In this document: piece by piece, positions 1 to 6,586 of the stretch
How the letters are laid out: each line of letters starts with the position of its first letter
Position numbering within the stretch: position 1 is the stretch's first letter
Assembly (NCBI GenBank): GCA_014649555.1
Contig: BMTG01000001.1
Coordinates: 1,302,001 to 1,366,000 of the forward strand
Direction: 5' to 3'
DNA length: 64,000 nucleotides
From: Streptomyces globisporus
GTDB taxonomy: Bacteria > Actinomycetota > Actinomycetes > Streptomycetales > Streptomycetaceae
The notes under the pieces: generated by a model
Database searches by the model: none
Seen by the model: the letters and a program-made list of their open reading frames with translations, nothing else
What the model was told of the DNA's origin: nothing
Translations under genes and position numbers: made by a program

Positions 1-1
1 G

Positions 2-1966
2 TTCGCCGCCTGCCTGGTGACCACGTCCGACGGCGCACTGGCCCCGGGGTGGTGGGACCTCGACGGCACACGTCCGCCGTACGCCGGTGATACGCCCCGC
101 TTCCGGGAGGGCGCCCCGACGGAGACCACCGCCACCCAGGTGCTCCCGACCGAATGCGGCGGGCTGCTGCGGCTGCGCGGCGCGGCGGGCTCCGGTCGTC
201 ACCTGCTCCTGCTGTCCCACCCCGCATCCGCAGGACCGGTGACCGAGGAGACCCCGACCGCCGGTACTCCGCTCGCCGGACCCCGGGGCCCGTCCTCGGC
301 CGGGACCGGCCCCGAGGCCCCGGCCCCGGCCGAGGACCCGGCCGAGTGCCTGTCCGTGGAGGCGCGGGGCCTGCGCCTGGTGCCCGGCGGCCCGCGCGGC
401 ACGCTCGCGCTGGCGGTGGAGACCGCTCACGACGGCCGCACCCGCGTCTGGCGGGTCAGGTCCGCGCCGCTGCGGCTGAGCGATCCCGTGACCCTGCCGG
501 GCCGGGTCACCGCCCTCCTGCCGCTCGACGGAACGGGCTGCCGCTACGCCACGGACCTCGAAGGGCCGGACGGGTACCGCCCCGTCTCCCTGGACCTGCG
601 CGACGGGAACCGGCTCGCTCTCCCGTCGCCGCCGGACGGCCGCATCCACCGGCTGCTGCTCTCGGCACCGGCCTCGGGACTGCTGCTGACGGCGAGCGAC
701 CCCGGCGACGGGCGGCTGCGGATCGCCCGCGCCACGCTCGGCCTCCGGCCTCGGCTCGACTTCCCGGACCGGCTCAACTCCCTGGACGGAGCGGTCCTTC
801 CGCTGGCCGCCGACCCGGCGGGTGAGCGGGTCGCGCTGCGGGTCTCCCGGGGCGCGCAGGCCCGCCTCTTCCTGTACGACGTGGCGGCGGACCGGCCCCG
901 GCCCGCCGAGCTGCCGCCGGGTGCGTTCCACCCCGTGGCGGGCTGGAGCGAGGGCGGGCTGCGCGTCGTGTACGCGGCCCCGGACCGCCCCGCGGACCTG
1001 GTCGGCGTCCCGGACACCGCCGCGCACGGCGCACCGGCCACCCCCTCCGGGGCCGCGTCCCCCACCCTCGACGTCTCCGCGACTCCCCACGCCCCCACCG
1101 AGTGGTTCGCCACCCCGTCCGGCCGCTTCGAGGCCGTCCGGCTGGGCGACTGGCGCACCGCGCCCACCGTCGTCGTGGCGCTGCACGGCGGTCCGGAGGA
1201 CCACTGGACGCTCGGCCACGACCCGGTGCTCGCGCGCCTGTCGGAGACCGGGGCGGCGGTGGTGGCCCCCAACCAGCGCGGCAGCACCGGCTACGGCCGG
1301 GCCCACGCCGAGGCGATCCACGGCGCGTGGGGCGTACCCGATCTCGCGGACATCCGGGCTCTGGTCCGTACGCTCACGGAGCAGCGCCCGCCGGACGCCG
1401 AACCACCCGTGCTGCTGGGCACGAGTTACGGGGGCTTCCTCGCCCTGCTGGCCGTGTGCGCCGACCCGTACGCCTGGGCACGCTGCGCGGTGATCGCCCC
1501 GTTCCTGTCCGCGCGCGGACTGCGCGAGCGGTCGTCGGCCGCCGTGCGTGCGCTGATCGACCGGCACGGCCTGGGCGAGCCGCCGGACGACGGCCTCGGC
1601 CCCAGGGACGTCGAACGCCTCGCCCACCGCATCCGCGTACCGCTGCTCGCCCTGCACGGCTGTGACGACCCTGTCGTGCCGGTGGACGAGACGCGCCGGC
1701 TGCGCCGGGCACTGACGCGGGCGGGCGGCCCGGAACGCGTGCCCCACGACTGTCTCGACATCGCGGGAGCGGGACACCACCCGCTCCAGGAGCGGGGCGG
1801 CGCCGAACTCACCGACCGGCTGGTGGGCTTCCTGACGGCCGGGTTCCCGGACCGCCGCCGCTCCCCCGCTCCCCCTGGACTCACGGTCGCCGACGCGGCC
1901 GTGCGGCACCGCCCATCCTCGGCGGTGTTCGGGCACATCACGCACGACGAAAGGACACCATCATGA
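2..1966 (+). CDS. S9 (prolyl oligopeptidase-like) peptidase, 5' end outside window
   Basis: The reading frame is open to the first base of the window, so the N-terminus is missing. A GTG at 17 is available, but the residues before it continue in frame and no ribosome site precedes it. The C-terminal alpha/beta-hydrolase domain shows the S9 triad: nucleophile motif GTSYGGF (Ser about 470 counting from GTG17), Asp in HGCDDPV (about 550) and His in GAGHHPL (about 587). The N-terminal part is probably the beta-propeller. The stop overlaps the next gene, a short precursor peptide, as ATGA, implying coupled translation. S9 enzymes remove leader peptides in some class III lanthipeptide pathways (family knowledge: FlaP, AplP), so leader processing is the inferred role. 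A housekeeping acylaminoacyl peptidase is less likely in this context. Confidence 0.85.
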   Translation, partial: FAACLVTTSDGALAPGWWDLDGTRPPYAGDTPRFREGAPTETTATQVLPTECGGLLRLRGAAGSGRHLLLLSHPASAGPVTEETPTAGTPLAGPRGPSSAGTGPEAPAPAEDPAECLSVEARGLRLVPGGPRGTLALAVETAHDGRTRVWRVRSAPLRLSDPVTLPGRVTALLPLDGTGCRYATDLEGPDGYRPVSLDLRDGNRLALPSPPDGRIHRLLLSAPASGLLLTASDPGDGRLRIARATLGLRPRLDFPDRLNSLDGAVLPLAADPAGERVALRVSRGAQARLFLYDVAADRPRPAELPPGAFHPVAGWSEGGLRVVYAAPDRPADLVGVPDTAAHGAPATPSGAASPTLDVSATPHAPTEWFATPSGRFEAVRLGDWRTAPTVVVALHGGPEDHWTLGHDPVLARLSETGAAVVAPNQRGSTGYGRAHAEAIHGAWGVPDLADIRALVRTLTEQRPPDAEPPVLLGTSYGGFLALLAVCADPYAWARCAVIAPFLSARGLRERSSAAVRALIDRHGLGEPPDDGLGPRDVERLAHRIRVPLLALHGCDDPVVPVDETRRLRRALTRAGGPERVPHDCLDIAGAGHHPLQERGGAELTDRLVGFLTAGFPDRRRSPAPPGLTVADAAVRHRPSSAVFGHITHDERTPS

Positions 1967-2094
1967 TCGACAACACCATGACCGTCGATGTCGACGAGCT
2001 GCAGACCCTGGAGGGCGAGGAGTCCGTCGCGCTGGCCGGCTGCACCCGGACCTGTACCTGGACCTGCTCCATCACCAGCATCGAGCAGCAGTAG
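1963..2094 (+). CDS. Putative lanthipeptide (class III-like) precursor peptide, 43 aa
   Basis: This small gene starts at ATG 1963, overlaps the peptidase stop by ATGA, and has a ribosome site gaaagga at 1949-1955. An ATG at 1978 is an internal alternative. The acidic leader contains DVDELQTLEGEE, like the LxDLQxLE leader motif bound by class III/IV synthetases. It ends with ALAG before a 17-residue core, CTRTCTWTCSITSIEQQ, holding three Cys and seven Ser/Thr, which suits dehydration and thioether ring formation. The neighbours are a leader-type peptidase and two ABC exporters, as in ramSAB clusters. The canonical SxxSxxxC pattern is absent: the three Cys all precede SITS. The chain has no Pro, odd for a substrate of a prolyl peptidase. 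It could also be a class IV or class II type precursor. The synthetase is not in the window. Confidence 0.75.
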   Translation: MIDNTMTVDVDELQTLEGEESVALAGCTRTCTWTCSITSIEQQ

Positions 2095-2233
2095 CAGCCG
2101 TGCGCCGGACGGGCCCCTCGCGGACCTGTCCGGCGCACGCCGTGTCTCCCGTACGCACGGCTCACCGCGATCCGTGCCCGTATCCCGTGCCCGTCCGCCC
2201 CCGCGGGAGCCACGGACGGCCGGAAGGATTCCG

Positions 2234-3991
2234 ATGACGTCTCCCCGGCGACTGGTGTGGGACGCGACCGCCCGGACGCGTGGCTGGTTCGTTCTCGCCT
2301 CCGCCACCGCCGTCCTGGGTGCGGCCGGCACACTGGCCTTCCCCTGGGCGATGGCGCGGGCCCTGGACGCGGTCGTCGCCCGGCGGCCCGCCACCGGTCC
2401 CGTCCTCGTGTGCGCCGCGCTCCTCGCCCTCGTCGTCACCACGGGGGCCCTCCAGACCCTCGCCAACGGGGGCTACGGCTCCGGCACAGTGGCGGCGCTG
2501 CGCCGGTCCATGGCCCGGCGCGCCCTCGACGCGGGGGTGCCGGGGACGGCCGGCTTCCCCGCCGGGGACCTCGCGGGGCGCCTCTCCGCCGGATGCGCGC
2601 AGGCCGGATCGGCGGGGGTCACGCTGGTCACGGCCTCGGCTGCGGTGCTGACCTCGCTCGGCGGGGTGGTCGCGCTGTGGCTGATCGACTGGCGGATCGG
2701 GCTCTGCTTCTCGCTGGGCGTCCCCCCGTTGGTGCTCATCGCCCGGGTGTTCATGAACCGCGGATCGGGGCTCTTCCTCCGGTACCAGGAGACTCAGGGC
2801 AGGATCTCCGCCCTGCTGCTGGAAGCGCTCGGCGGGGCCCGGACCATCGGCGCGAGCGGCACCGCGGCGGCCGAGACGCGCCGGGTCCTGGAACCCCTGC
2901 CGGAGCTGTCCCGCACCGGACACCGGGTCTGGGCGCTCCAGCGGGACACCGGATGGCAGGTGGGCCTGCTGATCCCGGCCGTCGAGGTGCTGGTCCTCTG
3001 CGCCGGGGGTCTCGCCCTCCTCCACGGTGACATCAGCGCGGGCGAACTCGCCGCGGTCGTCGGGTACACGGCGCTCGCGATGGCCGCGCTGGACCAGCTC
3101 GACGCCCTCTTCGCGCTCGGTATGTCGGCCGCCGGTGCGCGCCGGGTCGCCGAGGTCGTCGACCAGCCGGTCCCGGCCCCCGGCACCCGGGCCCGTCCGG
3201 CGAGCGGCCCCGGCACGGTAACCCTGTCGGGGGTGACGGTGCGTTCCGGTACCCGGCTCGTCCTGGACTCCGTGGACCTGGTCGTCCCGGCGGGCACGGC
3301 GCTCGCGGTGGTCGGACGGTCCGGGGCGGGCAAGAGCACCCTGGCGGCGCTGATCGGGCGGTTGCGGGAGCCGGACGCGGGCCTGGTCGCCATCGACGGC
3401 GTACCCCTGCCGGAGCTGACTCCCCGGGCCCTGCGCGCCGCCGTCGGCTACGCCTTCGAGCGTCCCGCGCTGCTGGGGACGACGGTGGCCGGGACGATCG
3501 CCTTCGCCCGCCCGGACGCCTCACGGGAGGAGGTGGCGGCGGCTGCCGGGGCCGCGCGGGCGGACGACTTCATCGCCCGCCTGCCGCACGGTTACGACAC
3601 CCCTCTCAAGGACGCACCCCTCTCCGGCGGAGAGGTCCAACGCCTGGGAATCGCGCGTGCATTGGTCCACGATCCGGCGGTGGTCGTCCTGGACGACGCA
3701 CTGTCGAGCCTGGACACCGCGACGGAAGCACGGGTCGGCTCCGCGCTGGCCTCGGCCTGGTCGGCCCGCACCCGGGTGCTGATCGCCCACCGGGTGTCGA
3801 CCGCGGCCCGGGCCGACCTGGTGGCCTGGCTGGAGAACGGCAGGGTCCGCGCTCTGGGCCCGCACCAGGAGCTGTGGCGACTCGACGGCTACCGGGCCCT
3901 CTTCGCGGCGGGCACCGGGACGGAAACGGAAGCCGCGCCGGAAGCCGTTCCGGAGCACGACCCGCATCCCCACCCCCAGGAGTCGGTATGA
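2234..3991 (+). CDS. ABC exporter half-transporter (permease-ATPase), first subunit
   Basis: This 585-residue membrane ATPase has an N-terminal six-helix exporter domain (about 15-300) and a C-terminal nucleotide-binding domain. Visible motifs are Walker A GRSGAGKST (361-369), signature LSGGE (463-467), Walker B ending in LDDALSSLD (D487-D488) and H-loop His519. The residue after the Walker B Asp is Asp instead of the catalytic Glu, marking this as the degenerate half of a heterodimer. ATG 2234 is preceded by ggaagga (2222-2228), and no membrane or peptidase domain lies upstream; there is no C39 protease. It follows the precursor peptide by 139 bases and overlaps the second ABC gene by ATGA. 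The inferred role is export of the modified peptide, like RamA of the SapB cluster. Confidence 0.85.
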   Translation: MTSPRRLVWDATARTRGWFVLASATAVLGAAGTLAFPWAMARALDAVVARRPATGPVLVCAALLALVVTTGALQTLANGGYGSGTVAALRRSMARRALDAGVPGTAGFPAGDLAGRLSAGCAQAGSAGVTLVTASAAVLTSLGGVVALWLIDWRIGLCFSLGVPPLVLIARVFMNRGSGLFLRYQETQGRISALLLEALGGARTIGASGTAAAETRRVLEPLPELSRTGHRVWALQRDTGWQVGLLIPAVEVLVLCAGGLALLHGDISAGELAAVVGYTALAMAALDQLDALFALGMSAAGARRVAEVVDQPVPAPGTRARPASGPGTVTLSGVTVRSGTRLVLDSVDLVVPAGTALAVVGRSGAGKSTLAALIGRLREPDAGLVAIDGVPLPELTPRALRAAVGYAFERPALLGTTVAGTIAFARPDASREEVAAAAGAARADDFIARLPHGYDTPLKDAPLSGGEVQRLGIARALVHDPAVVVLDDALSSLDTATEARVGSALASAWSARTRVLIAHRVSTAARADLVAWLENGRVRALGPHQELWRLDGYRALFAAGTGTETEAAPEAVPEHDPHPHPQESV

Positions 3992-5742
3992 GCGAGGCAG
4001 CCCCGCGCCCCATCGACCGGCATCTGTTCGCCGGGTTCCTGCGGCAGCACCGGGGAGCGGCGGTCGCGGTGGCGGGATGGTCGCTGCTGGAGGCCGTCCC
4101 CGCACTCGCCTCCGGACTCCTCGTGGCCGCCGCTCTGGACCGGGGCTTCCTCGCGGGCCGACCGGCCGAGGGCTTCTTCTGGATCGGTCTGCTCGGGGCC
4201 GCGATGGTCTTCCGCGCCCTGATGACCCGGACCCTGACACCGTGGCTGGGGCGGCTCGTGGAGCCGCTGCGGGACGAACTGGTGACGGCCGTGGCCGCGG
4301 GGGCCGTACACCGCGCGGCAGCGGGAGTGCGGGACGCGGCGGGCGCGGGCGTGGCCCGGCTGACGGTCCAGGTAGAGACCGTACGGGCGCTGGTGTCCGC
4401 CCTGCTGCGCTCGGCGCGGCAGCTCGGCGTCTCCCTGCTGATGGCGTTCGTGGGCCTGGCCGCCCTGTCCGCGCCGGTGGCGGCGGTCACCCTGCCCCCG
4501 GTCCTGCTCACCCTGCTCCTCTGCGCCCCCCGGCTCCGCGTCCTCGCCCGCCGCCAGCGCCGCCAACTGCGCGCCGAGGAAGGGCTCACGGCGGCGGCGG
4601 GAGAGACCTTCGACGGCATCCGGGACGTCGTCGCGTGCGGCGCCCAAGACCGGGTGGCCGACGACCTGTCCGCCCGGATCACGGACCACCGGGACGCGGT
4701 CCGGGCGGTCGCGAGGGCCGCGTCGGCCAACACGCTGTTGGTGTCGCTGGGCAGCCATCTCCCCCTGCTGGTACTGCTCCTGGCGGCCCCGCGGCTCCTG
4801 GACCGGGGGGCGCTGTCGGTGGGCGAACTGCTGGGCGCGACCAGCTATCTGATCAGCGGGGTCGCTCCGGCCCTGCGCTCACTCGTCGCCGTCCTCGGCT
4901 CGTGGGGCGTGCAGCTGGCGACCGTACTGCGCCAGTTGAGCCGGTCGACGACGCAGGGGCCGCACGGGGCGGCGGAAAGCCAGGGCCGGGCCACCTCCCC
5001 GCACACCCCACGCTCCCCGCACCTGTCCCTGGTGAACGTCGGCTACGCCTACGGTCCGGGCGCGGCACCTGTCATCGACAGGCTCTCCCTCGACATCCCC
5101 GCGGGCTCCCACCTGACGGTCGTCGGGCCGAGCGGTGCGGGGAAGTCGACCCTGACGACCCTGCTGGCCGGGCTTGCCGCACCGGACAACGGCCGACTGA
5201 CCCTGGGCGGCGTGCCGGTGACGGAGGTCGACCGGGCCTGGCTCCACCGGGCGGTGACGCTGATCCCGCAGGAGGCGTACGTGTTCACCGGCACCGTGCG
5301 GGACAACCTCCGCTACCTGCGCCCCCTGGCCAAGGACGCCGACCTCCTCGCCTCCGCGACGGCCGTGGGCGCGCGAGCCCTCGTGGACCGGCTCGGCGGC
5401 CTGGACGCGCCCGTCGGGCTTGACGGCCCCCCGCTCTCCTCCGGGGAACGGCAGCTCGTGGCGCTGGCCCGCGCCCATGCCTCCCCCGCGTCGGTCGTGC
5501 TGCTGGACGAGGCCTGCTGCCACCTGGACCCCGCGGCGGAGGAGCGGGCCGAGCGGGCGTTCGCGGCACGGGGCACCACGCTCGTCGTGGTGGCCCACCG
5601 CATCAGCTCCGCGCTGCGCGCGCCGCGGGTCCTGGTGCTCGACGGCGAGCGCACCGCCATCGGCACACATGCCCAACTCCTGGACGAGAGCCCGCTCTAC
5701 GCGGACCTGGTGGGCCACTGGGTGGCCGCCGGAACTCCGTAG
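3988..5742 (+). CDS. ABC exporter half-transporter (permease-ATPase), second subunit
   Basis: This 584-residue partner of the preceding exporter starts at ATG 3988 with caggag just upstream, and the start overlaps the upstream stop. It has a membrane domain (about 10-330) and an ATPase domain with Walker A GPSGAGKST (380-388), a degenerate signature LSSGE (483-487) in place of LSGGE, a canonical Walker B LLDEACCHLD (D507-E508) and H-loop His537. Its intact Glu would face the intact signature of the first subunit, giving one working ATP site. Its own weak signature would face the Asp-substituted Walker B. That complementary pattern supports an obligate heterodimer similar to RamA/RamB. It is the last gene of the apparent RiPP operon; a methyltransferase follows after 58 bases. 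Confidence 0.85.
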   Translation: MSEAAPRPIDRHLFAGFLRQHRGAAVAVAGWSLLEAVPALASGLLVAAALDRGFLAGRPAEGFFWIGLLGAAMVFRALMTRTLTPWLGRLVEPLRDELVTAVAAGAVHRAAAGVRDAAGAGVARLTVQVETVRALVSALLRSARQLGVSLLMAFVGLAALSAPVAAVTLPPVLLTLLLCAPRLRVLARRQRRQLRAEEGLTAAAGETFDGIRDVVACGAQDRVADDLSARITDHRDAVRAVARAASANTLLVSLGSHLPLLVLLLAAPRLLDRGALSVGELLGATSYLISGVAPALRSLVAVLGSWGVQLATVLRQLSRSTTQGPHGAAESQGRATSPHTPRSPHLSLVNVGYAYGPGAAPVIDRLSLDIPAGSHLTVVGPSGAGKSTLTTLLAGLAAPDNGRLTLGGVPVTEVDRAWLHRAVTLIPQEAYVFTGTVRDNLRYLRPLAKDADLLASATAVGARALVDRLGGLDAPVGLDGPPLSSGERQLVALARAHASPASVVLLDEACCHLDPAAEERAERAFAARGTTLVVVAHRISSALRAPRVLVLDGERTAIGTHAQLLDESPLYADLVGHWVAAGTP

Positions 5743-5800
5743 GCGTTGTGGCAGACTGCGTCGACTGACTGGTCCACACCACGTGTATCTGGAGTTCGGT

Positions 5801-6586
5801 ATGACGGCACAGGCGCCTCACCCCCCGATCGACACCAGCAAGCCGCACTCGGCCCGGGTCTACGACGCCCTGCTGGGCGGCAAGGACAACTACCCGGTGG
5901 ATCAGCAGGTGGCCGAACTCCTGCCCGTCGAGGCGAAGATCGGCGCCCACCAGCAGCGGGCCTTCATGCACCGCGCGACGGCGTGGCTGGCGGGCCAGGG
6001 CGTGACGCAGTTCCTCGACATCGGCACGGGCATCCCCACCGAACCGAACCTGCACCAGATAGCCCAGGAGATCCGCCCCTCCGCCCGGATCGTGTACTGC
6101 GACAACGACCCCATCGTCCTGCGCCACGCCGAAGCGCTGCTGGTCAGCCGCCCGGACGGTGTGACGGACTACGTCCACGCGGATGTCCGCGAGCCCGCGA
6201 TCATCCTCGACGCGGCCCGCGAGACCCTGGACTTCGACCGCCCGATCGCCCTGTCCCTGCTCGGCCTCCTCCACTTCCTCCCCGACGCCGAGAAGCCGAT
6301 CGACATCATCCGTACGTTCACCGACGCCATGGCGCCCGGCAGTTACGTCGTGCTGTCCCACGGCGCGTCCGACGTGAACGAGGAGAAGGGGGAGCAGAGC
6401 GCGGACGAGTACAAGAAGGGCGGCATCCAACTGGCCCTGCGGACACGGGAGGAGTTCTCCCGGTTCTTCGAGGGCCTGGAGATCGTCACCCCCGGCCTGG
6501 TGAAGGCCCCGGAGTGGTTCAACGGAACGCCCGCGCCCGAGCAGGAGCACAGCGGCATGTACGTCGCGGTGGCCCGGGTCCCGTAG
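5801..6586 (+). CDS. SAM-dependent methyltransferase, SAV2177/DUF574 family
   Basis: This is a 261-residue protein. The family hallmarks are visible: an N-terminal segment KPHSARVYDALLGGKDNYP, then the SAM-binding motif FLDIGTGIPTEPN (about 68-80) and the acidic motif VYCDNDPIVL (about 98-107). The family is a large actinobacterial group of predicted methyltransferases (Pfam Methyltransf_19) with mostly unknown substrates. ATG 5801 was chosen because the family motif begins right after it and ggag lies at 5791-5794; the longer frame runs into the ABC gene. It lies 58 bases after the exporter, so co-transcription with the RiPP genes is possible, but families like this are usually linked to XRE regulators. 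A second paralog lies at 16557-17363. Confidence 0.9.
   Translation: MTAQAPHPPIDTSKPHSARVYDALLGGKDNYPVDQQVAELLPVEAKIGAHQQRAFMHRATAWLAGQGVTQFLDIGTGIPTEPNLHQIAQEIRPSARIVYCDNDPIVLRHAEALLVSRPDGVTDYVHADVREPAIILDAARETLDFDRPIALSLLGLLHFLPDAEKPIDIIRTFTDAMAPGSYVVLSHGASDVNEEKGEQSADEYKKGGIQLALRTREEFSRFFEGLEIVTPGLVKAPEWFNGTPAPEQEHSGMYVAVARVP

Follow-up and report, generated by a model that had tools for sequence, protein, structure and literature searches.

Organization of the locus

The window, a 64,000-nucleotide stretch of the Streptomyces globisporus genome (G000, contig C1, positions 1,302,001–1,366,000), opens within a gene for an S9 peptidase, which is followed by a 43-codon gene, denoted lanA, an RNA hairpin and two ABC exporter half-genes (Table 1; positions in the extended locus, L007, equal window positions plus 6,000). 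The gene for the lanthipeptide synthetase, lanL, ends 46 bases upstream of base 1. ATGA overlaps occur at three junctions, namely, lanL/S9, S9/lanA and ABC1/ABC2, and a ribosome-binding site lies seven bases ahead of the lanA ATG. The gene order lanL, S9 peptidase, lanA, ABC, ABC is that of a predicted class IV lanthipeptide cluster.

Table 1 Features of the lan locus
Feature	Position	Strand	Remark
lanL, class IV synthetase (longest ORF, start codon tentative)	L007 2931–5954, wholly left of the window	+	
S9 (prolyl oligopeptidase family) peptidase	1–1966, start left of the window at L007 5951	+	proposed leader peptidase
Ribosome-binding site GAAAGGA for lanA	1949–1955	+	close relatives have a similar site
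lanA, class IV precursor peptide, 43 codons, ALQxL-family leader	1963–2094	+	
lanA leader, residues 1–26 (ends in VALAG)	1963–2040	+	exact cleavage site presumed; NF038157 covers residues 6–21
lanA core, three C-x-x-T units (CTRT/CTWT/CSIT/SIEQQ)	2041–2091	+	ring pairing predicted
Predicted methyllanthionine rings, one per unit			Cys27-Thr30, Cys31-Thr34, Cys35-Thr38 (presumed pairing)
RNA hairpin downstream of lanA and ahead of the exporter genes, without a T run	2099–2139	+	
ABC exporter half-gene 1, membrane domain and ATPase	2234–3991	+	
ABC exporter half-gene 2, ATGA overlap with half-gene 1	3988–5742	+	

Much of what the preliminary description of this DNA had reported was recovered: the small ORF between a peptidase and two exporter half-genes, its ATGA overlap with the peptidase gene (1963–1966), the leader motif DELQTLE (residues 11–17), and the three Cys and seven Ser/Thr among the 17 residues that begin with the first Cys. 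The lanthionine synthetase that it proposed to look for within about 10 kb upstream is the product of lanL.

Left of the window, on the minus strand and divergent from lanL, lie genes for a histidine kinase and a response regulator (L007 915–2788), possible regulators of the cluster; the pair is kept beside lanL in L025–L034 and in G437 (L054). The genome contains four more LanC-domain matches (C22:18962, C9:21147, C3:198327 and C1:539841; L001, L003, L004 and L005); the gene at C1:539841 reaches 386 bits on the LanL model, which is under the cut-off.

Conservation of lanA

The lanA ORF translates into the 43-residue peptide MIDNTMTVDVDELQTLEGEESVALAGCTRTCTWTCSITSIEQQ, and its ATG (1963–1965) overlaps the TGA stop codon of the S9 gene (1964–1966). 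A search of genome contigs for LanL yielded 14 loci, and a near-identical peptide between the S9 and ABC genes was found in nine of the ten named loci with a LanL at least 72% identical (L025–L031, L033 and L034), so that the small peptide is indeed conserved at this position in related strains, a point on which the preliminary description had made its proposal depend. In the tenth close locus, L032, the contig stops within the S9 gene; L035 to L037 encode different peptides, and the LanL match in L038 is confined to the kinase.

When eight lanA orthologues were compared with the window gene, 45 changes (summed over the eight pairs) were counted, with 28 in third, 10 in first and 7 in second codon positions, and none of them affected a Cys or a unit-ending Thr. 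Among the close orthologues, residues 29, 32, 36 and 40 vary, whereas Cys27, Cys31, Cys35, Thr30, Thr34 and Thr38 are fixed; Thr28 and Ser39 are likewise unvaried. The peptide is uncommon in the genus, given that matches at E ≤ 0.01 were found in 8 of the 392 genomes of the genus sample (five of these with at least 90% identity) and in 2 of a sample of 100 relatives, both counts including the genome itself. The start codon is uncertain: in Streptomyces sp. ADI96-02 (L031), codon 1 is not ATG, and translation can begin at residue 6. The precursor matched no Pfam family at E ≤ 1.

Class assignment

The synthetase scores 968.7 bits on the NCBIfam class IV LanL model (NF038150; cut-off 650) and 402.7 bits, below the cut-off of 575, on the class III LanKC model. 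A single protein carries the Pfam domains RamC_N (residues 70–248), Pkinase (301–491) and LANC_like (630–984). Its HWC..G and CHG motifs, which we take to provide the zinc ligands (Cys and Cys-His), align with their counterparts in LanC-like structures; at those aligned positions, chain 8car, presumably a class III enzyme, has FCQG and CCGL. LanA matched NF038157, the "ALQxL family class IV lanthipeptide", with 24.5 bits (cut-off 19), a 17-position model whose match lies in the leader. Thus, the cluster is assigned to class IV because the LanL model is passed and the LanKC model is failed, the zinc motifs are retained and the leader belongs to a class IV family; precursor and synthetase alike stand above the curated cut-offs. 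SxxSxxxC is a motif of class III lanthipeptides, so that its absence from the core CTRTCTWTCSITSIEQQ, correctly recorded in the preliminary description, is unsurprising; the suggestion that the layout might therefore be unusual did not hold, given that the core consists of regular C-x-x-T units common to many relatives.

These data bear on two alternative interpretations of the small ORF. It is short and lies in GC-rich DNA, which contains many chance ORFs, and could conceivably be an open frame that happens to follow the S9 gene; however, changes biased to third positions, fixed Cys and unit-ending Thr residues and the same place in relatives show that it is more than a chance ORF, and with the ribosome-binding site and the family match taken into account, the probability of this interpretation becomes negligible. 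It was rejected on account of the conservation of the peptide and the coding pattern of substitutions, and the ORF is, judging from the sequence, almost certainly a genuine class IV precursor gene. A class III-type product carrying labionin or rings like those of SapB, the type named in the preliminary description, would agree with the fusion of a kinase with a LanC domain and with the S9 peptidase known from the class III flavipeptin, according to the available part of PMC10885120. However, with the class IV model exceeded by far, the LanKC model under its cut-off, the zinc-ligand motifs retained, a leader of a class IV family and no SxxSxxxC, this identity is very improbable and was rejected on the model scores and zinc motifs; of the earlier proposal, the lanthipeptide precursor stands and its class does not. 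The precedents cited there are mixed, with FlaP belonging to the S9 peptidases and AplP to the M1 metalloproteases (available part of PMC10885120). In a review (PMC10676316, available part), class IV is called the least studied and least characterised group of lanthipeptides.

A proposed modular organization of class IV cores

The window core consists of three Cys-x-x-Thr units followed by SIEQQ, and the cores of relatives are built similarly, e.g. CPSS/CSWS/CSWS/CSWT, CEKT/CTAT/CGIT/CTAT and CGWT/CKGSS/CEVT/CFIS/CLVT. A precursor was defined as wholly modular if every inter-Cys segment ends in S/T and the last Cys is followed by x(2-5)[S/T]; the window core falls under this definition. The first set of 141 distinct peptides comprised 20 venezuelin-like peptides, 105 further peptides that have two or more core Cys and 16 with fewer; it includes 31 hand-picked peptides, some of which were the source of the unit idea (precursors omitted from the hand-picked list include those of L036, L051 and L055, which are not modular), and some peptides trimmed at an inner start. 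Of the 105 precursors, 62 were wholly modular and 43 were not, with L044 scored as non-modular because one segment ends in Tyr. An S/T directly precedes 204 of the 272 non-first Cys in this set, compared to a mean of 87.0 and a maximum of 111 in 2,000 shuffles.

The unit rule, first noticed in a few relatives, was then tested on later-fetched loci, where precursors were picked by the leader pattern alone. This later set of 80 LanL loci (L071–L150), chosen by LanL score from among the LanL matches, of which they form a part, gave candidates in 74 loci (116, 111 of them distinct); once 17 venezuelin-like peptides and 16 of the 99 others, with fewer than two core Cys, were set aside, 83 remained, which represent 78 distinct peptides. 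The counts still contain spurious ORFs (in at least L102, L132 and L147, the sole candidate looks spurious), and two earlier loci recur, L142 being L035, with no candidate, and L094 being L037, which is not modular. In this set, 43 of the 78 precursors consist wholly of C-x(2-6)-[S/T] units (shuffled mean 3.0, maximum 8 of 500), and S/T directly precedes 152 of the 207 non-first Cys (shuffled mean 63.7, maximum 85 of 5,000). The shuffling permutes the non-Cys residues within cores and ignores kinship, for which the count after similar cores were collapsed, 31 modular among 55 cluster representatives, is a partial remedy, the expectation of 3.0 referring to the 78. The other 35 of the 78 are not wholly modular; some represent other core types, such as CCDT and ALITACRWLTSGC, and some are near misses.

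These observations suggest that many class IV peptides in relatives are strings of short interchangeable ring units. In its general form, the proposal is that, in Streptomyces as well as in other actinomycetes, a large share of the class IV lanthipeptides are modular ring chains. Their cores would consist of 2 to 5 interchangeable C-x(2-6)-[S/T] units, with one Cys-first (methyl)lanthionine formed within each, and their LanLs would accept almost any residue inside a unit as well as units that differ in number and length, with several clusters, in which one LanL is accompanied by 3 to 5 different precursors of this kind, forming a natural combinatorial library; we consider this generalization slightly better supported than its negation. 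The main interest of the family is that a modular core code would allow ring structures to be foreseen: provided that every C-x-x-T unit forms a ring of its own, sequence alone could indicate what many unread clusters produce, and LanLs that naturally act on several substrates would be a ready tool for multi-ring peptides. lanA joins a known family, ALQxL class IV. In the open-licence literature searched, neither the unit rule (in the available text on class IV lanthipeptides) nor a mention of the ALQxL family together with lanthipeptides was found.

Several arrangements of precursor genes are of note. Between 3 and 5 distinct modular precursors lie beside one LanL in L081, L082, L136, L117, L144, L145 and L043, and L064 (G064) has a tandem pair of precursor genes identical in leader and core. 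The type ending in ALITACRWLTSGC, which is not modular, is identical in six loci (L085, L086, L088, L091, L094 and L037), the last two of which look like one locus.

Ring layout

For position counts in the first set, a spurious long ORF (L077) was removed from the 105 precursors. S/T occupies position +3 after the first Cys in 77 of 104 cases and after the last Cys in 70 of 92; at position +2, the corresponding counts are 17 of 104 and 6 of 97. The last residue is the only S/T in 101 of the 164 non-final units. In 12 of the 62 wholly modular peptides, there is no S/T between the leader motif and the first Cys, so that this Cys can pair only downstream within the core. The simplest scheme in which no Cys and no conserved unit-ending Thr is left over joins each Cys to the last residue of its unit.

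In the principal alternative, the class IV precursor would form rings that overlap or run forward, with Thr/Ser on the N-terminal side of Cys, e.g. Thr28-Cys31 and Thr32-Cys35, and one Cys left free. The window core indeed also contains T-x-x-C at both of these places; for a class IV peptide from Streptomyces sp. DvalAA-43, three dehydrations and two rings that may overlap are described (available part of PMC9576775), and venezuelin itself was interpreted as having overlapping rings (available part of PMC2843593). However, Streptomyces sp. ADI96-02 has Ala at position 32, the residue that matches position 28 is Gly or Ala in G437, and neither the modular peptides that lack S/T ahead of the first Cys nor the S/T at +3 of the last Cys fits this layout, which we therefore regard as unlikely, albeit not to the same extent as a class III product. 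The preferred layout, in which adjacent (methyl)lanthionine rings follow one another without overlap and Cys is the N-terminal partner in each, is probable as judged from the genes, although ring size or direction could deviate from unit borders. The Cys-first rings of the venezuelin C32A variant, Cys34-Dhb39 and Cys45-Dha49 (PMC2843593, available part), are a precedent for the Cys-first direction, but not for an overlap-free chain because venezuelin is read as overlapping.

Proposed biosynthesis

Given the genes, their class, the conservation and the unit rule, all of which can be read directly, the following pathway may be proposed. LanL would bind the ALQxL leader of LanA, phosphorylate Ser and Thr of the core, eliminate the phosphate to yield dehydroamino acids and add Cys thiols to these; in each unit, Cys would attack the dehydrobutyrine formed from the Thr three residues on, giving the methyllanthionines C27-T30, C31-T34 and C35-T38, and Ser39 and some inner Thr/Ser may remain dehydrated. 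The S9 peptidase would take off the leader wholly or partly, and the two ABC half-transporters would export the peptide; cleavage site, export and activity are all putative. To the interpretation as a whole, i.e. a class IV lanA, this mechanism, the ring chain and export, we assign a probability of about 0.85.

Among the known systems (described here from the available parts of the sources), venezuelin shares with the window a LanL and a two-part ABC exporter as well as Cys-first rings, the latter in the C32A variant, but differs in that venT and venH encode ATPase and permease separately, in that its cluster is described without a protease and in that its rings are read as overlapping (PMC2843593). 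Venezuelin-like cores follow the pattern C.C.GLLT..NT.C.G.SC and, unlike the window core, are not made of C-x-x-T units. SflA, from Streptomyces sp. NRRL S-1022, is according to reviews a class IV peptide with two non-interlaced thioether rings, whose leader is cleaved at PDLLK by a protease that the cluster itself does not encode; the PDLLK motif, a sign of an SflA relative, was not found in the LanL loci examined. The class III flavipeptin cluster, like the window, includes an S9 peptidase, FlaP, but its synthetase is of another class and FlaP cuts after a leader Pro (PMC10885120). Such a cut cannot occur in the window LanA because it contains no Pro anywhere; Gly stands just ahead of its first Cys. 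Prolyl cleavage just before the first Cys was also considered across the wholly modular peptides and rejected: apart from the Gly in the window, Pro in this place has no clear tie to S9 (21 of 49 peptides with S9 and 4 of 13 without).

Hairpin downstream of lanA

The hairpin after the lanA stop codon has a predicted folding energy of −42.8 kcal/mol (z −3.47). In an alignment of the window with seven relatives, which left out L034 and also L031, 4 of the 21 pairs show pair-keeping changes on both sides, and three pairs are broken, each in one of the eight sequences; the hairpin is apparently lost in L034 (S. durocortorensis), otherwise the nearest named relative. A function as intrinsic terminator was rejected, as a scan of 1900–2400 revealed no terminator-like site, and there was no Rfam match at the gathering score in positions 1–6000 of the window. 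The hairpin may determine how abundant lanA mRNA is relative to exporter mRNA.

Distribution and gene order

With the best two candidates per genome scored, LanL exceeds the cut-off in 78 of the 392 genomes of the genus sample and in 116 of the 345 genomes of the order of G091. S9 and both ABC genes occur in the order and strand of the window beside distant LanLs in G866, G091, G578 (two), G762, G666, G096, G859, G437 and G426; in G064 and G201, the available stretch ends ahead of the second ABC gene. The order lanL, S9, lanA, ABC, ABC is thus older than the close group and recurs in distant actinomycetes. The S9 gene is not special to modular cores because G866 and G096 carry venezuelin-like precursors; in the later-fetched set, S9 was present in 14 of the 17 venezuelin-like loci and in 17 of the 24 loci with a wholly modular precursor.

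On a LanL tree of 40 rows, which contains duplicates (L069 is L031 and L070 is L030) and several long branches, the modular label needs 5 changes, and a single origin of modular cores is not supported. The three LanLs with venezuelin-like precursors form a separate clade. The nearest row to the window LanL is that of Streptomyces durocortorensis, with 98% identity over 941 columns.
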